From the NCBI RefSeq assembly GCF_008710275.1, contig NZ_VYQE01000001.1, positions 434,001-498,000 on the forward strand: a stretch of DNA of 64,000 nucleotides, in the 5' to 3' direction. The notes under the pieces were generated by a model. That model saw only the letters and a list, made by a program, of their open reading frames with translations, ran no database searches and was not told the origin of the DNA. Numbering within the stretch: the first letter of the stretch is position 1; the number at the start of each line of letters is the position of its first letter. Source of the DNA: Histidinibacterium aquaticum (GTDB taxonomy: Bacteria; Pseudomonadota; Alphaproteobacteria; Rhodobacterales; Rhodobacteraceae). Positions 5,549 through 33,791 of this stretch are shown one piece after another. The position numbers and the translations under genes are program-made.

Positions 5549-6568
5549 ATGGGTCGCAGGGTCACGCTGCGCGATCTCGCGAACGAGCTGGGGCTGTCGA
5601 AGGGTACGGTCTCGCGCGCGTTGAATGGGTATCGCGACATCAGCCCGGCGACCGTCCAGCGCGTTCGCGAGGTGTCCGAGCGGATCGGCTACCGCCCCCT
5701 CGCCCAGGCACAATCCATCCGGACCGGACAGTCACGGTCCCTCGGTCTCGTGCTCCAGATGGAGCAGCACGACGCCCAGCGCCCTTTTCTGGCGGAATTC
5801 CTGCGCGGCATCACCCGCACGGTCTCGGCGCAGCACTGGACCCTGACGATGGCGACCGCGGAGAGCGAGGAAGAGGGCCTGGAGACCTATCTCCGCCTCA
5901 TCGCCGAGAGAAAGGCGGACGGGTTCATCCTGCCGCGGACCCAGCGCCAGGATCCGCGGATCGCTCTGCTGCGCGACGCGGGCTGCCCCTTCGTCCTGTT
6001 CGGACGGACCGATGACAGCGCGGATTGCGCGTGGTTCGACATTCGGGGCGGCCGGGCGATGCAGCAAGCCGTCGCGAGGCTCGTCGGGTTCGGGCACCGT
6101 CGTATCGCCTTCGTGGGCGCCGACCCGATCTATACCTACGCCACGAAGCGGCTCGACGGCTACAAAGAGGGCATGGCGGAGGCCGGTCTGCCTCCGCTCG
6201 TCACCTCCGGACATGCGACCGCTGCCGACGGCGGAAGGGCGCTTGGCGAGCTGCTCGACGGGGAGAATGCTCCGACGGCAGTAATCTGCGCCACCGATCT
6301 TCTGGCGACCGGCGCCGTGCGGGCGGCGCAGGCGCGCGGCCTCGCCGTCGGAAGGGATATTTCGATCATCGGCTACGACGGCAGCCGGGAGGGCCAGAAC
6401 CTCGACCCGCCCCTCACGAGCTTTGCGGTCGATCAGACCGCCGCGGGCGCGAGGCTGGCCGAGTTGCTGATAGCGCGGATCGGCGGTGCCGATCCACAGG
6501 AACTGCGGGTGACGGCGGATGCCGTTCTGCGGGAGGGCGGAACCGACGGTCCGCCACCGAACGAGTAA
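5549..6568 (+). CDS. LacI-family transcriptional regulator of the sugar operon
   Basis: The 339-residue protein has a canonical N-terminal LacI helix-turn-helix (residues 5-25, including VTLRDLANELGLSKGTVSRAL) and a hinge helix. A periplasmic-binding-protein-like effector domain with two lobes follows, with late conserved segments such as ICATDLLATGA and SIIGYDG. It is the first gene of a seven-gene collinear stretch for import and hydrolysis of a glycoside, so it most likely represses that operon and binds its substrate. A perfect LacI-type palindrome sits 37 bp upstream. The ribosome site is GGGAGGGG. The effector cannot be read from sequence; a glucosyl- or mannosyl-glycerate type solute is my inference from the hydrolase. 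Confidence 0.94.
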   Translation: MGRRVTLRDLANELGLSKGTVSRALNGYRDISPATVQRVREVSERIGYRPLAQAQSIRTGQSRSLGLVLQMEQHDAQRPFLAEFLRGITRTVSAQHWTLTMATAESEEEGLETYLRLIAERKADGFILPRTQRQDPRIALLRDAGCPFVLFGRTDDSADCAWFDIRGGRAMQQAVARLVGFGHRRIAFVGADPIYTYATKRLDGYKEGMAEAGLPPLVTSGHATAADGGRALGELLDGENAPTAVICATDLLATGAVRAAQARGLAVGRDISIIGYDGSREGQNLDPPLTSFAVDQTAAGARLAELLIARIGGADPQELRVTADAVLREGGTDGPPPNE

Positions 6569-6586
6569 ACCAACGGGAGGAAAGCG

Positions 6587-7933
6587 ATGACCACCAAAAC
6601 ACTGACCAGAGCCCTGATGGGCACCGCGCTGACGACGCTGATCGCGTTGCCGGCTGCGGCCGATATCCGTTTCTGGACAACCGAGGAACAGCCCGAGCGC
6701 CTCGAGCGTCAACAGCAGCTCGCGGCCGATTTCGAAGAGCAGTCGGGCATCGCCGTCGAGGTGATCCCGATCACCGAAAGCGACCTCGGCACACGAGCGA
6801 CCGCCGCCTTCGCCGCGGGCGACCTGCCCGACGTGATCTACCACACCCTGCAGTACACCCTGCCCTGGGTCGAGGCCGGGATCCTCGACGCCGAGATCGC
6901 GACCGAGGTGATCGAGACGTTGGGCCCCGACACATTCGCCCCGGGCGCGCTGGAATTCGCCGCGACCGAGGACGGATACGCCGCCGTGCCGGTGGACGGA
7001 TGGACGCAGATGATCCTCTACCGCCAGGACCTCTTCGAGGAGAATGGCCTCGAGCCGCCCACGACCTACGAGGCCGTGACCACCGCGATCGAGGCACTGC
7101 ACAATCCGCCGGAGATGTTCGGGTTCGTCGCCGCGACCAAGGTGGACGAGAACTTCATGAGCCAGGTCCTGGAGCATGTCTTCCTCGCCAACGGCGCGAG
7201 CCCCGTGGGTGAAGAGGGCTTCACCGGCTTCGACGAGGAAGCGACCGTCGAGGTGCTGGAGTTCTACAAGACCCTCGCCGAGGCCTCGCCGCCGGGAGAA
7301 CTCTACTGGGACCAGTCGCGCACGCTCTACTTCTCGGGCGAGGCGGCGATGATCATCTGGTCGCCCTTCATCCTCGACGAGCTTGCGGGCCTGCGCGACA
7401 GCGCCCCGCCCACGATCAACGACGATCCGACCTCGACCGAGCTGGCATCGAAAACCGGTATCGTCACGAGCTTCGCCGGACCTTCGAACCCCGACGGGGC
7501 GGCCTGGGCCGACGTGCGCTATTTCGGGATCACAGCGGACGCGGATTTCGACGAGGCGCAGGCCTTCGTCGAGTTCTCCATGAGCGACGGCTACACCCAG
7601 ACGCTGGCCATCGCGCCCGAGGGCAAGTTCCCGGTGCGCCGCGGCACGCAGGAGAATCCGCAGGAGTTCATCGAGGCCTGGGCCGAGCTGCCGGTTGGCG
7701 TCGATCGCAAGGCGCCGCTCGCCGAGCTCTATGACGCGGAGATGATCGACGAGATCGTGGCCGGTCTCGACACCGCGCAGCGCTGGGGCATCGCCGACGG
7801 GCAGCTCGCGCTCGCCTCCAAGATCATCAACAGCCAGGTCATCAACCGCGTGGTCCGCCAGTACATCGACGGCGAGATCGACGCGACTGCTGCCGTGCAG
7901 CAGATGAACGACGAACTGGCCGAGATCGAGTGA
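6587..7933 (+). CDS. ABC transporter sugar-binding protein (family 1 solute-binding)
   Basis: This secreted periplasmic receptor has 448 residues and an N-terminal signal peptide with a Leu/Ala core and a probable cleavage after AAA near residue 23. The mature part has the family 1 extracellular solute-binding layout: an early strand IRFWTTEEQPER, then the segment IPITESDLGTRATAAFAAGDLPDVIY, which is typical of glycoside and oligosaccharide receptors. It follows the LacI gene by 18 bp with a strong GGGAGGAAAG site and precedes two permeases. A 13-bp GC stem-loop lies between it and the first permease gene, suggesting higher abundance of this receptor than of the membrane parts. Confidence 0.93.
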   Translation: MTTKTLTRALMGTALTTLIALPAAADIRFWTTEEQPERLERQQQLAADFEEQSGIAVEVIPITESDLGTRATAAFAAGDLPDVIYHTLQYTLPWVEAGILDAEIATEVIETLGPDTFAPGALEFAATEDGYAAVPVDGWTQMILYRQDLFEENGLEPPTTYEAVTTAIEALHNPPEMFGFVAATKVDENFMSQVLEHVFLANGASPVGEEGFTGFDEEATVEVLEFYKTLAEASPPGELYWDQSRTLYFSGEAAMIIWSPFILDELAGLRDSAPPTINDDPTSTELASKTGIVTSFAGPSNPDGAAWADVRYFGITADADFDEAQAFVEFSMSDGYTQTLAIAPEGKFPVRRGTQENPQEFIEAWAELPVGVDRKAPLAELYDAEMIDEIVAGLDTAQRWGIADGQLALASKIINSQVINRVVRQYIDGEIDATAAVQQMNDELAEIE

Positions 7934-7940
7934 CGACAAG

Positions 7941-7974
7941 GGGACGCGCGCGGGATCACTGCCGCGCGCGTCCC
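7941..7974 (+). promoter_or_regulatory. Intercistronic stem-loop after the binding-protein gene
   Basis: A perfect 13-bp stem (7941-7953 pairs with 7962-7974, arm GGGACGCGCGCGG) with an 8-nt loop lies in the gap between the solute-binding protein gene and the first permease gene. No U tract follows, so it is more likely an mRNA-stabilising or partial-attenuation structure than a full terminator. A similar element follows rhaS at 19166-19188. Confidence 0.7.
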
Positions 7975-7994
7975 GTCCGGGGGAGGAGACACCG

Positions 7995-9227
7995 ATGACG
8001 GACGCCGTTCCACCGAAAGGCCGCGGCCCCCTTGCCCGGCGCGAAGCGCGTCTGGCCTGGAGCCTGCTCGCGCCCACGGTCGCCATCGTGTCGGCCGTCG
8101 TCGTCCTTCCCCTGCTCGCGATCTTCTGGATTTCGTTCAAGCCGGTGGGTCTCGCCGACCTGCGCCCACCTGCCCCGGTCGTCCGCGAAAGCCTGCGCGG
8201 CGACGGAGAGGACCTGCGCGTCCAGTACCGGCTGCGGAACTCGTCGCAGGATATCGCGATCTCAGGCGTGACGATCACCGACACCCTGCCGCCGGGCCTC
8301 ACAGTCCGCGAAGCCGACGACCGCTGCGAAGTGAGCGACGGCACGATCCTGTGCGACCTCGGCGATCTCGAGGCCGGCGGGCGGGACGAGATCGAGATAT
8401 TCGTCTCAACCGAAGACGATCCCGACGCACTCGGCGAAGAGGCCGAGGCGAGCGCGCCGGACGTGACCGGCCGGGCTCCGAACATCCTGACCAACGCCGA
8501 GTTCACGCTGGAGAATTTCGCCCGCATCTTCGACGGAGACGAGTTCTGGGGCGTGCTCGGGGTGACGCTGTTCTACGCCACGGTGGGCACCATCGGCGCG
8601 TTGGTCGTCGGGCTTTTCGCGGCCATGCTGCTCGACCGGTCCTTCCGCGGCCAGGGTATCCTCCGCGGCCTCTACCTCTTTCCCTACGTCGCCCCGGTGA
8701 TCGCGGTCGCCTTCACCTGGGTGATCCTGTTCGACCCCTTCTCGGGTTCGGCCAACGCGCTGCTGCTCCGCATGGGCGTGACCGAGAACGCGATCAACTT
8801 CTTCGGCGACCGGCCGCTCGCGCTGATCATGGTGACCGTCTTCGAGATCTGGCGCTACTTCCCGCTGTCGTTCCTGTTCATCCTCGCGCGGATGCAGTCG
8901 ATCCCCGAGGACATGTACGAGGCGGCCGACATGGACGGCGCCTCGCCCTTCCAGAAGTTCTGGTTCCTGTCGCTGCCGCAGCTTCTCGGCATCCTCTCGG
9001 TGCTGTTCCTGCTGCGCTTCATCTGGACCTTCAACAAGTTCGACGACATCTTCCTACTGACCGGCGGCAACGCCGGCACGCGGACGCTGACGGTCAATGT
9101 CTACGAACAGGCTTTCGCGGTTTCGAATATCGGAGCCGGCGCGGCAGTGGCCGTGGTGATCTTCGGCTGTCTGCTCCTGTTCTCTGTCTTCTTCTTCAAG
9201 GTCCTGAGCCGGGAGGAGGGACTATGA
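7995..9227 (+). CDS. ABC sugar permease (MalF-type) with a DUF11-like periplasmic insertion
   Basis: This inner-membrane permease has 410 residues where family members have about 290-310. The first helix is at about residues 24-46. The usual FTLENFARIF segment that normally follows closely appears only at residue 170. Residues about 55-160 form an insertion with the signature of a DUF11/conserved-repeat Ig-like domain: NSSQDIAISGVTITDTLPPG, two cysteines (C111, C120) that could form a disulphide, and the closing LGDLEAGGRDEIEIFVS. The C-terminal half has normal permease helices and the coupling EAA-like loop (AADMDGASPFQKFWFLSLPQ). It overlaps the next permease by ATGA. Confidence 0.92.
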   Translation: MTDAVPPKGRGPLARREARLAWSLLAPTVAIVSAVVVLPLLAIFWISFKPVGLADLRPPAPVVRESLRGDGEDLRVQYRLRNSSQDIAISGVTITDTLPPGLTVREADDRCEVSDGTILCDLGDLEAGGRDEIEIFVSTEDDPDALGEEAEASAPDVTGRAPNILTNAEFTLENFARIFDGDEFWGVLGVTLFYATVGTIGALVVGLFAAMLLDRSFRGQGILRGLYLFPYVAPVIAVAFTWVILFDPFSGSANALLLRMGVTENAINFFGDRPLALIMVTVFEIWRYFPLSFLFILARMQSIPEDMYEAADMDGASPFQKFWFLSLPQLLGILSVLFLLRFIWTFNKFDDIFLLTGGNAGTRTLTVNVYEQAFAVSNIGAGAAVAVVIFGCLLLFSVFFFKVLSREEGL

Positions 9228-10426
9228 GCGCGCTACGCTACGGATACGTCACCGCCGCGATCCTCGGCCTCCTCTGGACCTTCACGGTCGCCGTTACCGT
9301 GGCCGTCGCCATGTCCTTCCTCACCGGCGCGGCCTTCCAGCCCTCGATGCTCCTGTCGGGCCTGGCCGGCGCGCTGGCCGGGGCCGCGTGTCTATGGGGG
9401 CGCGCTGGCGCCGGCATCGCGGCTTTCGGGCTGCTGGCGCTCGGTGTCATCGGTCTCGGCCCCGTCCAGACCGGGGAGGTCGGGCTTCTCTCCCTTGTCA
9501 TCGGCCATGCACTCGCCGCATCCGCGACTGTGGCGGGGCTCGATGGCTTCCTTCGCAAGTTGCCCTCCGGGCGCCTCACGCGGCACGAGTTCGAGGACGC
9601 CGTCATCCGCTTCCTCACCGGCTTCGGCTACGTGTTCTTCACCGCCATCGTCGCCATCCCCTTCTACGTCATGGTGATGACCAGCCTGAAAAACCAGCAG
9701 CAGCTGGTGCAGAACCCGCTCGACTTCAGCATCGATCTCTCGCGGGGCTGGCACCTCTTCGACAGCTACGTCGAACTGTTGACCGTGTTCAATTTCGGCT
9801 CCTACCTCTGGACGAGCTTCTACGTCGCGGTGCTGACCGTCCTCCTGACGCTCGCCTTCTCGATCCCGGGGGCATACGCGGTGGCAAGGATGCGGTTTCG
9901 CGGCGCGGCGGTCTTCTCGCGCTCGATCCTGCTGATCTACATGGTGCCGATGATCGTCTTGGCCCTGCCGATCTACATCGGCTACTCGATGGTCGGCCTG
10001 CGGAACTCGATCCTCGGCATCGTGCTGATCTACCCGGTCACGACCATCCCCGTGGCTCTCTACATGCTGCAGGGCTACTTCCGGGGCCTTCCGGCCGAGG
10101 TCGAGGAAGCGGGGCTGATGGACGGTCTTTCGCGCCTCGCGGTGATCTGGAAGATCACGCTGCCGCTCTCCCTGCCCGCCCTCGCCTCGGTCTCGCTCTA
10201 CGTCTTCATGATCGCGTGGAACGAGTTCCTTCTCGCCTTCATGCTGCTCGACGATCCCTCGAAATTCACCCTGACGCGCGGCATCGCCTCTCTCAACAGC
10301 TCCGAGATCCCGCGCCAGCACCTTATGGCCGGGTCGGTGATCGCGACGGTCCCGATCATGGCGATCTTTCTCGGCCTCGAACGCTTCATGACGCGCGGCC
10401 TCACTGCCGGGTCGGTGAAGGGATGA
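9224..10426 (+). CDS. ABC sugar permease (MalG-type) with an extra N-terminal membrane module
   Basis: This 400-residue inner-membrane protein is the second permease of the importer. The C-terminal ~280 residues are a standard MalG-type permease: first helix after FLTGFGYVFF, the loop EEAGLMDGLSRLAVIWKITLPL (EAA motif), and the final SVIATVPI segment. Before that, about 115 residues contain roughly four additional hydrophobic helices that ordinary MalG proteins lack. The start is ATG 9224, overlapping the preceding stop; the longer upstream frame from 8351 runs through the other permease and is not coding. Whether the N-terminal module is regulatory or structural cannot be told. Confidence 0.92.
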   Translation: MSALRYGYVTAAILGLLWTFTVAVTVAVAMSFLTGAAFQPSMLLSGLAGALAGAACLWGRAGAGIAAFGLLALGVIGLGPVQTGEVGLLSLVIGHALAASATVAGLDGFLRKLPSGRLTRHEFEDAVIRFLTGFGYVFFTAIVAIPFYVMVMTSLKNQQQLVQNPLDFSIDLSRGWHLFDSYVELLTVFNFGSYLWTSFYVAVLTVLLTLAFSIPGAYAVARMRFRGAAVFSRSILLIYMVPMIVLALPIYIGYSMVGLRNSILGIVLIYPVTTIPVALYMLQGYFRGLPAEVEEAGLMDGLSRLAVIWKITLPLSLPALASVSLYVFMIAWNEFLLAFMLLDDPSKFTLTRGIASLNSSEIPRQHLMAGSVIATVPIMAIFLGLERFMTRGLTAGSVKG

Positions 10427-10475: not shown

Positions 10476-11717
10476 ATGACCGACGAAGACCTCGACGCGG
10501 TCGCGCGCGATATCCTGACCTCGAACGACCGCGGCGGCTACACGATCCCGACGGCGGGGCTCTACCCGTTCCAGTGGAACTGGGACTCCGCCTTCGCGGC
10601 CTGGGGTTTCTCGACCTTCGACGCGGACCGCGCCTGGACCGAGCTCGAAACCCTGTTCTCGGCGCAGTGGACGACCGGCATGGTCCCGCACATCGTGTTC
10701 CACCAGGAGGATGACGGGTATTTTCCCGGGCCCGACGTCTGGGCCACCGGGACGACGCCCGCCACCTCGGGCATCTCGCAGCCCCCCGTCGCGGCGATCC
10801 TCGCTCGGCTGATCCACGACAGCGTGGGCGGGACCGAAAGGCTCCGCGCACTCTATCCGAAGCTTCTGGCCTGGCATCGATGGTGGCGCGAGAGCCGCAT
10901 GGCCCACGGCATCGCCTGTGTCGCTCACCCCTGGGAGTCGGGGCGCGACAACTGCCCGGACTGGGACCCGGGAATGGCCAATGTCGATACCACCGGCATC
11001 GGCCCCTACCAGCGCCGCGACACCGGCCATGTCGACGCCGCCATGCGTCCCGGCAAGGAGGACTACGACCGCTACCTTGCCATGGTGAAGTTCGGCCGGG
11101 ACTGCGGCTGGGACCAGGAGAAGATCCGCGACGATGGCCCGTTCCTGATGGGCGATCCGGCGATCACCTTCATCCTGGTCCGCGCGAACCGGGACCTCGC
11201 GGCCATCGCCGAAGCCCTGGGCGAGGACGGGGCCGTGCCCGCCGCTTGGGCCGACGAGATGGAGGCCGCCCTGCCATGGCTCTGGAGCGAGTCGCTTCAG
11301 GCCTATGCGGCGCGCGACGTGCGCACCGGCACCTTCGCCGGCACCATCTCCTCGGGCGCGGCGCTTGGCCTGCTGGCCGGTGTCGAGAACGCGGCAATGG
11401 AAGAGAAACTCGCCGCCATGTGGGACCGCGTGCGCTACGGAATCCCGTCGAACGATCCCGCCACACCCAGCTTCGAGCCGCGTCGCTACTGGCGCGGACC
11501 GACCTGGCCGGTGGTCAACGCGCTCATCGCGGTGGGCCTCAAGTCGGCCGGCCGTATCGCCGACGAGGCGCGCCTGCGCCGTGAAACCGCAGAGCTGATC
11601 CGGCGCGGCGGCTTTTACGAGTACTTCGACCCGATGGACGGCACGGCCTGCGGCGGAGACCAATTCACATGGACGGCCGCCATCTGGCTGGCCTGGGCCA
11701 ACAGGGAGGATGCGTGA
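10476..11717 (+). CDS. MGH1-like glycoside hydrolase (mannosyl/glucosylglycerate hydrolase-like)
   Basis: The 413-residue protein has no signal peptide, so it should act on the imported glycoside in the cytoplasm. It has the (alpha/alpha)6-barrel pattern of GH63/MGH1-like enzymes: YPFQWNWDSAFAAWGF near residue 29, then MVPHIVF, the WESGRDNCPDWD stretch that contains the expected acid Asp, and near the end RRYWRGPTWPVVNALI and FYEYFDPMDG with the expected base Glu. Length fits mannosylglycerate/glucosylglycerate hydrolases (about 410-450). Trehalase or another alpha-glucosidase remains possible. It lies between the permease and ATPase genes, so its substrate is very probably the transported compound. 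Confidence 0.82.
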   Translation: MTDEDLDAVARDILTSNDRGGYTIPTAGLYPFQWNWDSAFAAWGFSTFDADRAWTELETLFSAQWTTGMVPHIVFHQEDDGYFPGPDVWATGTTPATSGISQPPVAAILARLIHDSVGGTERLRALYPKLLAWHRWWRESRMAHGIACVAHPWESGRDNCPDWDPGMANVDTTGIGPYQRRDTGHVDAAMRPGKEDYDRYLAMVKFGRDCGWDQEKIRDDGPFLMGDPAITFILVRANRDLAAIAEALGEDGAVPAAWADEMEAALPWLWSESLQAYAARDVRTGTFAGTISSGAALGLLAGVENAAMEEKLAAMWDRVRYGIPSNDPATPSFEPRRYWRGPTWPVVNALIAVGLKSAGRIADEARLRRETAELIRRGGFYEYFDPMDGTACGGDQFTWTAAIWLAWANREDA

Positions 11718-12766
11718 TGGGGGCGATCCGGCTCGACCGTCTCGAAAAGTGGTTCGAGGCGCTGCAGGTCATCAAGGGCATCGACCTCGAGATCGAGGAC
11801 GGCGAGTTCATCGTCTTCGTCGGCCCCTCGGGCTGCGGCAAGTCGACCCTCCTGCGAATGATCGGCGGGCTGGAGGAGATCAGCCGCGGCAAGCTGGTGA
11901 TCGACGGGCGCGACGTCACCTCCGATCCGCCGTCGAAGCGCGGCCTGTCGATGGTGTTCCAGAGCTACGCGCTCTACCCGCACATGTCGGTGCGCGAGAA
12001 CATGGGCTTCTCGCTGAAGACCGCCGGCGCTCCGAAATCGGAAATCACCGAGAAGGTCGACGACGCCGCGCGCATCCTCAAGCTCGGCGACTACCTCGAC
12101 CGGCGGCCGAAGGCGCTCTCGGGCGGACAGCGGCAGCGCGTGGCCATCGGTCGCTCGATCGTGCGCGACCCGACCGCGTTCCTTTTCGACGAGCCCCTGT
12201 CCAACCTAGACGCCGCGCTCCGCGTGGAGATGCGATACGAAATCGCCAAGCTGCACCAGACGCTGGGCCGGACGATGATCTATGTGACCCACGATCAGGT
12301 CGAGGCGATGACGCTCGCGGACCGGATCGTGGTGCTCGAGTTCGGCACCATCGCACAGGTCGGCACGCCGCGAGAGCTCTATGAGAGGCCCGCCAACCTC
12401 TTCGTCGCCGAGTTCATCGGTTCGCCCGCGATGAACATCCTGCCCTGCGTTCCGTCCGACGGCGGCCTCGCGGTGAAGGGCGGCCGCCAGATACCGGACA
12501 GTTCGGGGCGCGACGGAGCGGTGAAGATCGGCGTGCGGCCGGAAGACCTCGGGGCGGTTGCCCCGGGCGAGGGGATGCTCGACGCCGAAGTCGAGGTCGT
12601 CGAGTACCTCGGCGCCGACAGCTTCCTTATCCTCGGGACCGAGCAGGCCGGCCAGGTCACGCTGCGCGCGGACGGCACCACGCGCGCCAAGCCGGGCGAC
12701 ACGATGGGCCTCGCCCTGACGGGGAGGCTCCACGCTTTCGATGAGAACGGACAAGCGCTGCGCTGA
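11717..12766 (+). CDS. ABC transporter ATP-binding protein (UgpC/MsmK type)
   Basis: The 349-residue cytoplasmic ATPase energises the sugar importer. Walker A is GPSGCGKST (about residues 36-44), the signature is LSGGQRQRV, Walker B is FLFDEPLSNLDA, and the switch His is in VTHDQ. The C-terminal ~110 residues form the TOBE/OB regulatory domain usual for MalK/UgpC proteins, with the VGVRPEDL-type segment as IGVRPEDL. The start is taken at ATG 11717, overlapping the hydrolase stop (TGATG), not the upstream 11669 codon in the hydrolase frame region. It is the last gene of the operon and converges with lldD 22 bp away. Confidence 0.94.
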   Translation: MGAIRLDRLEKWFEALQVIKGIDLEIEDGEFIVFVGPSGCGKSTLLRMIGGLEEISRGKLVIDGRDVTSDPPSKRGLSMVFQSYALYPHMSVRENMGFSLKTAGAPKSEITEKVDDAARILKLGDYLDRRPKALSGGQRQRVAIGRSIVRDPTAFLFDEPLSNLDAALRVEMRYEIAKLHQTLGRTMIYVTHDQVEAMTLADRIVVLEFGTIAQVGTPRELYERPANLFVAEFIGSPAMNILPCVPSDGGLAVKGGRQIPDSSGRDGAVKIGVRPEDLGAVAPGEGMLDAEVEVVEYLGADSFLILGTEQAGQVTLRADGTTRAKPGDTMGLALTGRLHAFDENGQALR

Positions 12767-12788: not shown

Positions 12789-13934
12789 CTACCGGAAGCG
12801 CAGGTTGTCCCGCCCGAGCTGGTCGAGGCTGGTACGGCCCATGAGCCGCATGTCCCGGATCAGCTCGTCGCGCATCAGCCCGAGCGCGCGCTCGACGCCG
12901 GGCCGCCCCGCCGCGGCGAGGGGGAAGAGGTAGTACCGGCCGAGGCCCACGGCTTTCGCCCCGAGCGAGAGCGCCTTGAGCACATGCGTGCCACGGGTCA
13001 CGCCGGAATCCAGCATCACGTCCAGGCGGTCGCCCGCGGCCTGGACGATCTCGTCCAGCTGGTCGAAGGGCGAGCGGCTGCCGTCGAGCTGCCGGCCGCC
13101 GTGATTGGAGATCACGACGCCCTTGCAGCCGATCTCGGCCGCGCGGACGGCATCCTCGGGGGCCATGACCCCCTTGAGGCAGAACGGCCCGCCCCAGAGG
13201 TCCACCATCTCGGCGACATCGTCCCAGTTCATCGAAGGGTCGAGCATCTCGGTGAAGTACTGGCCGATCGAGGCGGTACCGGTCCCCAGATTGGTGTGCC
13301 CCTCGAGCTGCGGCAGCGAGAAGGGCTCGTGGGTGAAATGGTTGAAGGCCCAGGCCGGGCGGGCGGCGAAGCCGGCGATGCCCTTGAGGTTCAGCTTGAA
13401 GGGGATCGAGAAACCGGTGCGCTTGTCCCGCTCGCGGTTGCCGCCGGTGATCGAATCCACGGTCAGCATCATCACCTCGACGCCGGCCTCCTTGGCGCGC
13501 TGCATCATTGCCTTGTTCAGCCCCCGGTCGCGGTGGAAGTAGAACTGGTAGACCTGCGGCGTCTTGTGCTTCTTGCGCATCTCCTCCAGCGAGACCGTCC
13601 CCAGCGAGGAGACGCCGAACATCGTGCCGAAGGCCTCCGCCGCCGCCCCGACCGCGCGCTCGCCCTCGTGGTGAAAGAGACGCTGCAGGGCGGTGGGCGA
13701 GCAGTAGACCGGCAGGTCGAGCCTCTGTCCCATGACCGTGGTCGAGAGATCGACCTCCTCGACACCGCGCAGGATGTTCGGGATCAGGTCGACGTCGCCG
13801 TAGCTGGCGGCGTTGCGGGCATAGGTCGCCTCGTCGTCGGCGGCTCCGTCGATGTAGTCGAAGATCGGACGGGGCAGCCGGCGCTTGGCCAGCTTCCGGA
13901 AGTCCTGGAAATTGTGGCAGTCTGTCAGTCTCAT
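12789..13934 (-). CDS. lldD: FMN-dependent L-lactate dehydrogenase (LldD family)
   Basis: This 381-residue alpha-hydroxy-acid dehydrogenase probably oxidises L-lactate to pyruvate at the inner membrane face. The family signature SNHGGRQLDG is present, with the catalytic base H278 and the substrate Arg two residues after the Gly pair; SGVTRGTHVLKAL and GRYYLFPLAAAG cover the FMN phosphate site. It is the last gene of the leftward rha unit and its start overlaps the rhaK stop by 4 nt. That placement makes functional sense: rhamnulose-1-phosphate cleavage gives L-lactaldehyde, which RhaD can oxidise to L-lactate. Other 2-hydroxy acids cannot be excluded. Confidence 0.88.
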   Translation of the reverse strand: MRLTDCHNFQDFRKLAKRRLPRPIFDYIDGAADDEATYARNAASYGDVDLIPNILRGVEEVDLSTTVMGQRLDLPVYCSPTALQRLFHHEGERAVGAAAEAFGTMFGVSSLGTVSLEEMRKKHKTPQVYQFYFHRDRGLNKAMMQRAKEAGVEVMMLTVDSITGGNRERDKRTGFSIPFKLNLKGIAGFAARPAWAFNHFTHEPFSLPQLEGHTNLGTGTASIGQYFTEMLDPSMNWDDVAEMVDLWGGPFCLKGVMAPEDAVRAAEIGCKGVVISNHGGRQLDGSRSPFDQLDEIVQAAGDRLDVMLDSGVTRGTHVLKALSLGAKAVGLGRYYLFPLAAAGRPGVERALGLMRDELIRDMRLMGRTSLDQLGRDNLRFR

Positions 13935-15295
13935 CGGGTCTCCAGCGCGCTTCGCCAGCCCGCAGCATAGGTCCGCAGCGCCTCGGCGTCCTGCGGCACG
14001 ATGCGGCGGCCCGGGGCGTCACGGTAGGTCTGAGCGAAGAGCAGAGCTCCGCCGGTCGAGGTCCCCGTGGCCGAGGTGGAGGCCTCCACCGGGCCGTCGC
14101 GAAGCGCGGCGAGCATCTGCAGGTAGTCCTCGTTCCGGGCGAAGGGCCCCTCGACGATCACCGGCCCCCGGGCGCCGATGAGGCTCAGACAGGTGTCGGT
14201 CATCAGGGCGAGGTAATAGGAGAGCGCCAGCATTCGCTGGCCGGTCGAACCGGGCTCGCTCGTGAACCCGCCCGATCGCTCCGGAAAAGGCCCGGATCCG
14301 GTGACAACCGCAGGCCGGAGGTACAGCCCCCGCAGGACGGCGGCCCGGTCCTCGGCAGAGGGATCGGCCTCCTGGCCCTCGCGGATGGTTTCGAATTCCC
14401 GCCCGCCCATGAAGCGGGCCGAGGGCACGGGCTCGCCGCGCGCGTCGACGTTGACCAGCGTGTCGCGCGCCGGGTCCAGCGTCACGTCCGACGCCCCGAC
14501 CGCCATGGCAACGACCCAGGTCCCGGTCGAGACCACCGAGAACGGCGGCTCGCGGCCCGCGAGGTGCGGATAGAGCGAAGCGTTGCTGTCGTGGATGCCG
14601 CAGGCGACAGGCGTGTCGGGGGCGAGTCCGGTGGCCTTGGCGACCTCCTCCGTGATGGGGCCCAATCGGTCGAAGGAGCGCCGGGCCGGCGCGATCGCGT
14701 CGGTAAGGCCCAGGCGCTCGACCAGCGAAGAGGGCGCGCCCTTCCACGGGTTCCAGAGATCGGTGTGGCAGCCCAGCGAGGTGACATCCGTCGCGAAGGT
14801 CCCCGTCAGGCGATACCCCCAGTACTGCGGATAGGTCAGGAAATGCGCCGTCCTGTCCCGGAGCCCGGGATCGGTTTCCAGCATCCAGTGAAGCTGGGCC
14901 CCGAGGTTGAGCCCCCTCGGCAGGCGCGGACTGCCGGTCTCGGAGAAGGGCGGTCTCAGGGCGTCGTAGGCCTCGGCGAGGCTGTCCGGGCCATCGTGCT
15001 CGTAGTCGAGCATGGGCGCAGCGAGCTCGCCCTCTGCATCCAGCAGGACACCCGAGGCGCCGTGGGTGGTCACGGACACGGCGTCGACCCCATGCTCCCG
15101 GTGCATGCGGCCCAGCGCGTCCAGCAGGAACGCCCAGTGGCCGTCGAGATCGAAGTGCGGCCACGGCGGGCCCGGACGCACCGTGTTCGGCCGCGTCTCG
15201 ACGGCGAGTTCCTCCAGCGACACGGCGTCGACCAGCGCGAGCTTCGCGTTGGTCTTGCCGATGTCGATGACGGCGATGTGGCGCAATTCGCTCAT
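13931..15295 (-). CDS. rhaK: L-rhamnulokinase-like FGGY carbohydrate kinase (RhaK)
   Basis: The 454-residue cytoplasmic kinase phosphorylates the sugar imported by RhaSTPQ, most likely L-rhamnulose to L-rhamnulose-1-phosphate. The N-terminal phosphate loop is [14 protein letters not shown], the catalytic-Asp segment is [14 protein letters not shown], and STGTWV follows as in FGGY kinases. I start at ATG 15295, overlapping the rhaM stop, since the upstream extension to 15382 lies within rhaM. In Rhizobium leguminosarum the homologous RhaK is also needed for uptake by the ABC transporter; whether that holds here is untested. The gene order rhaRSTPQ-U-K is the same. Confidence 0.9.
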
Positions 15296-15606
15296 GCCAG
15301 GTGAAACATCGTCTGCAGGGGCACCTGTACGGGGGAGCCGTCCGGGTTCGTCTCCATGATGTCCGCCATGTGCGCCCACCACTTCTTCATCACCGGGTGA
15401 TCCGGAAGGTCCGCCATGCCGTGCCCCTCGCGCCGCCAGAGCACTGCGAAGAGGTGGTTGGTCTCGGGATCGAGGTGGATCGAGTAATCCTCGACTCCGG
15501 CCTGGCGCAGCAGCTCGGCGAGCTCCGGCCAGATCTCGTCGTGGCGTCGCTTGTATTCCTCAACCCGGCCCGGGTGCAGGTTCATTCGGAAGGCGATCTT
15601 CTCCAT
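15292..15606 (-). CDS. rhaM: L-rhamnose mutarotase (RhaM/RhaU)
   Basis: The 104-residue protein equilibrates the alpha and beta anomers of L-rhamnose before isomerisation. Family residues are present: the early [24 protein letters not shown] with the catalytic His, the strand [16 protein letters not shown], and the C-terminal [19 protein letters not shown]. Length equals Escherichia coli RhaM (104). The start is put at ATG 15606, which overlaps the rhaQ stop; a GTG one codon earlier is also possible. In rhizobia this position of the operon is called rhaU. Confidence 0.95.
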
Positions 15607-33704: not shown

Positions 33705-33791
33705 TGGTGCGGTCGAGAAGACTCGAACTTCCACGGGTGTTACCCCACAGCGACCTCAACGCTGCGCGTCTACCAATTCCGCCACGACCGC
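33705..33791 (-). tRNA. tRNA-Leu (anticodon GAG)
   Basis: On the minus strand the acceptor stem GCGGTCG pairs with CGACCGC, followed by A and an encoded CCA (33705-33707). The D arm has TTGGTAGACGC, the anticodon loop is TTGAGGT (anticodon GAG, reading CUC/CUU), a long variable arm is present and the T arm contains GTTCGAGTC. The long variable arm is expected of class II tRNA-Leu. A dyad 76 bp downstream (33604-33629) could serve as its terminator, but this is weak. Confidence 0.97.

Follow-up and report, generated by a model that had tools for sequence, protein, structure and literature searches.

A MalF-like sugar permease of Histidinibacterium aquaticum with a predicted DUF11 (CLIPPER) domain in its first periplasmic loop

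We analysed a stretch of 64,000 nucleotides of the Histidinibacterium aquaticum genome (contig NZ_VYQE01000001.1, positions 434,001 to 498,000; hereafter the window), and in particular the open reading frame (ORF) at 7995..9227. This gene belongs to a sugar-transport operon and encodes an ATP-binding cassette (ABC) permease that carries an extra segment after its first transmembrane helix (TM1). An initial annotation of the sequence had described it as an ABC sugar permease with about 105 residues inserted behind helix 1, and had proposed that these residues form a DUF11-like domain of immunoglobulin (Ig) fold. The gene and its parts, with the support for each, including AlphaFold2 (AF2) models, are the following:

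7995..9227, plus strand: MalF-like (CUT1) ABC permease with a predicted DUF11 insert, 410 amino acids (ORF, Pfam, solved relatives SugA (8ja7, 7cad) and MalF)
8139..8198, plus strand: conserved juxtamembrane arm, residues 49-68, KP..L.DLRPP....RE.LR (alignment of 59 rows)
8166..8474, plus strand: predicted DUF11/CLIPPER-type Ig-like domain, residues ~58-160 (Pfam 77-154; AF2 strands from residue 61 to 160; hhalign E 1.8e-11)
8325..8354, plus strand: Cys111 and Cys120, the insert's sole cysteines, probably forming a disulfide (invariant in alignments)
8508..9224, plus strand: permease core (BPD_transp_1), residues 172-410, with the EAA-X3-G motif EAADMDG (Pfam, PDB sequence search)

The product combines both traits of a CUT1 permease, namely a BPD_transp_1 core (PF00528, residues 203-405, E 3e-15) and the EAA-X3-G motif in the form given in PMC3150292, and the assignment to ABC sugar permeases is therefore correct. 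Among solved structures its closest relative is SugA, from the trehalose importer LpqY-SugABC (E 4e-30 over core residues 171-404). SugA matches residues 16-54 and 171-404 and has nothing for the insert between them. MalF is also among the best solved relatives, and its phmmer alignment restarts at permease residue 173, which corresponds to residue 262 of 2r6g_F. In a simple hydropathy scan, residues 28-46 came out as TM1 and residues 195-213 as the segment after it, a spacing of 148 residues, whereas nine further MalF-like permeases encoded in the genome gave 36-51 residues in the same scan. These nine are the ones with both helices resolved, out of 12 other matches; the remaining three were set aside (L150, frame not retrieved; L157, no TM1 called; L158, late-core match only, gap 42). 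The difference in spacing bears out the predicted insertion, which covers roughly residues 58-160. In the AF2 model the helix after the insert begins at residue 181. The permease core of the full-length model is poor (mean predicted local distance difference test score, pLDDT, 61), and therefore no orientation of the domain is claimed.

By sequence comparison, the inserted segment is a DUF11 domain. Pfam DUF11 (PF01345) matched residues 77-154 of the whole protein just above its gathering cut-off of 24.6 (25.5 bits, E 1.8e-5). Residues 50-166 alone, the region singled out for this check in the initial annotation, scored 28.5 bits (E 2e-6), and in a whole-genome search the insert (28.1 bits) was the sole DUF11 match of the host. 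An hhalign comparison of 21 inserts (alignment A5) with nine DUF11 repeats (alignment A6) gave a probability of 97.3 and an E-value of 1.8e-11, the latter flattered because the repeats had originally been found with the insert profile. Six proteins encoded in other genomes supplied the repeats (five have frames of 1252-2177 amino acids, the sixth one of 235), and all four repeats that were scanned, out of the nine, exceed Pfam's own DUF11 cut-off. The order of features that had suggested DUF11 also recurs in the alignment: RNSS, VTITDTLPPG, the two cysteines and LGDLEAGG of the insert line up with their counterparts in the repeats, and the cysteine pairs coincide. Among 59 aligned insert rows, DUF11 was detected at E <= 0.01 in 36 and fell below that level in 23. 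A PDB sequence search with the insert profile returned just three chance-level matches (E 0.43 to 1.2).

DUF11 has recently been renamed CLIPPER and is typical of fibrillar adhesins (PMC12617251). The insert shares with DUF11/CLIPPER (PF01345, 9IFR) the sequence family, the predicted Ig-like sandwich and, in the repeats compared, a cysteine pair at the same place. The usual context is, however, that of repeats in long surface proteins, whereas the insert is a single copy inside a 410-residue inner-membrane permease. No report of a DUF11 permease was found in the literature searched, which did not extend to domain-architecture databases such as InterPro, and the words “permease” and “transporter” do not occur in the main text of PMC12617251. 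The link with adhesins favours the idea that the insert, like DUF11 in surface proteins, ties the importer to the cell wall or to some other partner in the envelope. We consider such an anchor improbable, given that a single copy is held in a permease loop and that none of the six operon genes compared is wall-related (wall-binding motifs were sought by Pfam only). None of our observations suggests a contact with the wall.

The AF2 model of the insert (pLDDT 82.6) is an Ig-like beta sandwich of eight strands, in keeping with the CnaA-like sandwich of DUF11/CLIPPER domains. This, together with the location between TM1 and TM2, agrees with the suggested Ig fold in the first periplasmic loop; from the topology of the permease, the insert would lie in the periplasm. 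A Foldseek search with the model ranked the solved CLIPPER structure 9IFR 21st (E 5.5e-3, TM score 0.49, root mean square deviation 6.3), below family 2 carbohydrate-binding modules (CBM2) and others, the neighbours being Ig-like and CBM2-like sandwiches. MalF P2 was not among the 50 matches listed by VIA-align, an absence that carries no weight. Since the model has the CBM2 fold, the insert might be a carbohydrate-binding module that pre-concentrates the substrate near the pump. CBM2 modules bind sugar through a surface platform of aromatic residues (Trp). Such a platform is absent here, the window insert having no Trp and Tyr78 being the sole conserved aromatic residue within the sandwich, which makes this function very improbable.

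The insert-bearing permease is not a one-off, but occurs in many marine alphaproteobacteria, in the host family and in eight other alphaproteobacterial families. A contig scan yielded at least 496 confirmed relatives, of which the best 80 loci were kept; these were ranked by similarity to insert-bearing queries and give no unbiased count. The insert is present in all 80. In a sample of the same family, the insert profile matched 69 of 295 genomes; one (G079) had the match in a 3672-residue frame only, and the other 68 gave strong matches (E <= 1e-27). The frames concerned were mostly of about 415-490 amino acids, with a few longer or at contig ends (cores not checked individually). The class sample contained strong matches in 10 of 385 genomes, seven of these in other families, while one more match (G563, E 0.008) looks like chance. 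In the phylum sample, permease-type matches were confined to 9 of 299 genomes, all of the same class and one in an eighth other family; seven further genomes had weak matches only, mostly in large repeat proteins and some in shorter frames. The insert-bearing permeases of Thalassospira marina and Paroceanicella profunda are encoded on plasmids. Rhizobium matches that apparently spanned the insert were rejected: at the two loci examined (L159 and L160) the permeases have no insert, and the match had run into upstream DNA.

Every one of the 59 aligned inserts has exactly two cysteines. The pair is also invariant in 21 rows spanning eight other families. It occurs in every one of the 80 kept loci: a pattern match showed it in 78, and inspection by eye in the other two (L042 and L060). 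Surface CLIPPER domains have another kind of cross-link: 9IFR contains a Lys715-Asn806 isopeptide bond with Asp748, and such Lys-Asn bonds are frequent in DUF11/CLIPPER but not universal, being absent in some domains, and hence not defining (PMC12617251). The permease inserts differ in this respect, as a conserved isopeptide lysine was not found among the 59 rows (at most 11 with Lys in any insert column, 29 without any), and the window protein has no Lys between residues 50 and 172. With no Lys column conserved, a conserved isopeptide bond is therefore not possible. Of the 59 rows, 98% retain Asp96 in the TDTLP motif; to judge by its spacing, this residue may be a remnant of the catalytic Asp. 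The natural reading is that a Cys111-Cys120 disulfide would replace the isopeptide bond of the surface domains. The mean frequency of the top residue in the same rows is 0.84 for residues 49-68 and 0.82 for residues 76-84, against 0.45-0.61 in the other stretches of 69-158. Conservation is thus concentrated in the juxtamembrane arm (49-68) and in the YRxRNSS strand, suggesting that the constraint on the insert acts on its side near the membrane.

The P2 domain of MalF has an Ig-like fold, as predicted for the permease insert. Like our permease, MalF of E. coli and of the Thermotogales belongs to the CUT1 type and has an additional domain in the periplasmic loop that precedes the same position of the core; this domain measures ~180 residues in MalF and ~105 in our permease. 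P2 comprises MalF residues 91-271 (PMC3150292), and the point at which the alignment resumes (173 = 262 of 2r6g_F) is near its end, so that the position of the insertion is the P2 position. The shared loop and the similar fold raise the question whether the insert is a diverged P2 domain, derived from a common ancestor with MalF. No match to the P2 profile (PF14785) was obtained in the insert at E <= 1, and an hhalign comparison of the 21 inserts with P2, represented by only three MalF sequences, gave a probability of 0.7, compared with 97.3 for DUF11. In the phylum, 3 of 150 genomes had P2, and the host had none.

The origin of the insert was also examined by maximum likelihood, in a tree built from the core sequences of 59 permeases. 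The tree was rooted at its midpoint, two short rows were left out, and several of the long branches were flagged. All 23 insert-bearing rows, a sample of those found, form one clade (support 100/100), and the three MalF rows form a separate one. Five permeases without an insert group with the insert clade on a branch supported at 96/94 that excludes MalF, under the midpoint root only; the closest other permeases lack any insert. MalF proteins with a large loop between helices three and four, from enteric bacteria and Thermotogales, have also been described to cluster together (PMC2246101). Descent from P2 is consequently extremely improbable, and the initial annotation escapes the case that would have undone it, namely that every homologue carries a domain of the MalF P2 type. 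In view of the separate clades and the negative P2 profile search, the DUF11 insert looks like an independent gain at the P2 spot.

The other genes of the operon, and one further feature of the second permease, are:

5549..6568, plus strand: LacI-type regulator (match in 58/80 loci)
6587..7933, plus strand: solute-binding protein, SBP_bac_8 / SBP_bac_1 (Pfam; 80/80 loci)
9224..10426, plus strand: MalG-like permease, 400 amino acids (79/80 loci)
9224..9598, plus strand: N-terminal extension of the second permease, ~125 amino acids, three hydrophobic segments, no Pfam match
10476..11717, plus strand: MGH1-like GH63-type hydrolase (PF22422, E 2.2e-116; 67/80 loci)
11717..12766, plus strand: MalK/UgpC-type ABC ATPase (NCBIfam NF008653, 452.6 bits, cut-off 432; 78/80 loci)

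The counts refer to tblastn matches over at least half of the query in the 80 loci, of which L069 and L088 are cut by contig ends; three of the 58 LacI matches are reversed, with 27% identity, and are probably other genes. A binding protein, a partner permease and a MalK-type ATPase are all present, as is typical of a CUT1 operon. Two of the helices of MalF are extra and lie at its N-terminus. MalF has eight helices in all (PMC2246101); in the operon described here, by contrast, it is the second permease that bears additional hydrophobic segments at its N-terminus. An antisense ORF of 931 amino acids (5732-8527, minus strand) runs across the LacI, binding-protein and permease genes and is probably a by-product of high G+C content. 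Downstream, on the opposite strand (12789-15382, minus), lie genes for a flavin mononucleotide (FMN)-dependent dehydrogenase and an FGGY carbohydrate kinase. The only tRNA gene of the window according to ARAGORN is tRNA-Leu(gag) at 33705-33791 (minus strand).

The likely substrate was approached through the glycoside hydrolase (GH) of the operon. It is closest to the Thermus mannosylglycerate hydrolase structures 2z07/4wva (E 1.3e-100), followed by the mycobacterial glucosylglycerate hydrolase. The catalytic Asp182/Glu419 and the listed substrate-contact motifs of the latter (MhGgH; PMC6608630) have identical residues in the operon enzyme, by eye and with a numbering offset of 2, so that these motifs are common to it and to the mannosylglycerate/glucosylglycerate hydrolases (4wva, 5ohc). 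The operon on the Paroceanicella profunda plasmid does not contain the GH63-type hydrolase. A GH13 sucrose-phosphorylase-like gene (L139:3604-5304) lies there in divergent orientation to the transporter's LacI gene, and its product has PYELN and TETN, motifs given for glucosylglycerate phosphorylase (PMC10608839). Two enzymes of different families for one compound, beside the same transporter, are the best hint to the substrate, which we infer to be a 2-O-glycosyl-glycerate (glucosylglycerate or mannosylglycerate); the hydrolase would split it in the cytoplasm after import. Glucosylglycerate is a compatible solute of marine cyanobacteria, and mannosylglycerate of red algae. The hydrolases fall into two classes by identity to the window copy, ~50-57% and ~62-90%. 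These classes, together with the 13 of 80 loci in which the enzyme was not found, may reflect two substrates. Among the ten ORFs of three such loci, seven had Pfam matches, none of them to a glycosidase, and three had no match.

We propose the following explanation, to which we assign a probability of about 0.5. One DUF11/CLIPPER-type Ig-like domain would have entered a MalF-like permease between TM1 and TM2, apparently once; in the periplasm it would be locked by the Cys111-Cys120 disulfide instead of an isopeptide bond. There it would play a P2-like part in a glycosyl-glycerate importer: standing as a rigid arm next to the entry of the channel, it would hold the binding protein, or steer it, through the cycle. 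Domain identity, predicted fold, fixed position, a single clade in the sampled tree and a conserved operon are supported by the computations. For the insert as a P2-like dock we see about even odds. MalF P2 contacts the binding protein (PMC3150292), and because of the P2 position a contact with the binding protein is a better reading than one with the wall.

The dock was examined by covariation in the 54 of 81 operons that had all six genes at 70% coverage (27 were dropped). Insert and binding-protein distances gave a partial r of 0.31, which fell to 0.17 when more controls were added (p between 0.002 and 0.03 by permutation). The insert and the extension of the second permease gave 0.36 (0.27), and each covariation of the insert exceeds permutation. 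Mean identity in these operons is 87% for the core of the first permease and 88% for that of the second, but 43% for the extension. This fast-evolving extension (9224-9598) has a similar counterpart in distant members such as L120.

Several results speak against parts of the proposed explanation. The insert covaries more strongly with the hydrolase (0.42; 0.24 with more controls), the ATPase (0.40; 0.22) and LacI (0.39; 0.20) than with the binding protein. Its mean identity in the 54 operons is 50%, compared with 79% for the binding protein, which is not expected of a large conserved interface. In distant members DUF11 falls below the cut-off (Paroceanicella, 17.2 bits) or is undetected (L116 and L120, no match). 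As regards the substrate, the operon hydrolase scores 334 bits against a cut-off of 550 for the NCBIfam glucosylglycerate hydrolase equivalog and is therefore called a relative only. Two of the 13 loci in which it was not found are cut by contig ends. A tblastn search with the Paroceanicella gene, reaching at most ~6 kb to each side, found no glucosylglycerate phosphorylase near the 80 loci, with its source locus (L139) recovered as a positive control, and the phosphorylase hint therefore rests on one plasmid.

The main rival to the P2-like dock is a structural appendage, which would shield or stabilise the permease pair on its periplasmic side, or would aid assembly with the extended second permease, with no docking involved. 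It would fit a sandwich that is for the most part poorly conserved beside a strongly conserved juxtamembrane arm, a covariation with the binding protein that is not above the controls, and the role of CLIPPER domains as stalk and stability modules in surface proteins (PMC12617251). It accounts less readily for the retention of the insert in all 80 kept, similarity-ranked loci, for a cysteine pair invariant in rows from nine families, and for the choice of the very place occupied by the docking domain of MalF. We regard the appendage as possible, though on balance doubtful.

Among the extra domains through which an ABC importer communicates with its binding protein, P2 of MalF is the best studied. 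A natural replacement of P2 of other origin would let one ask whether P2 itself is required for this role or whether any rigid domain in that place would do. The fuller account, in which a CLIPPER domain was captured once, its isopeptide bond was traded for a disulfide, and it came to serve as a dock, has in our judgement slightly less than an even chance. If it is true, type I ABC importers acquired Ig-like docking domains twice in one and the same place, from unrelated sources, and that place itself would be the functional constraint. The predicted domain also takes the CLIPPER/DUF11 family beyond cell-surface proteins, and the widespread operon provides a candidate glycosyl-glycerate importer in roseobacters.
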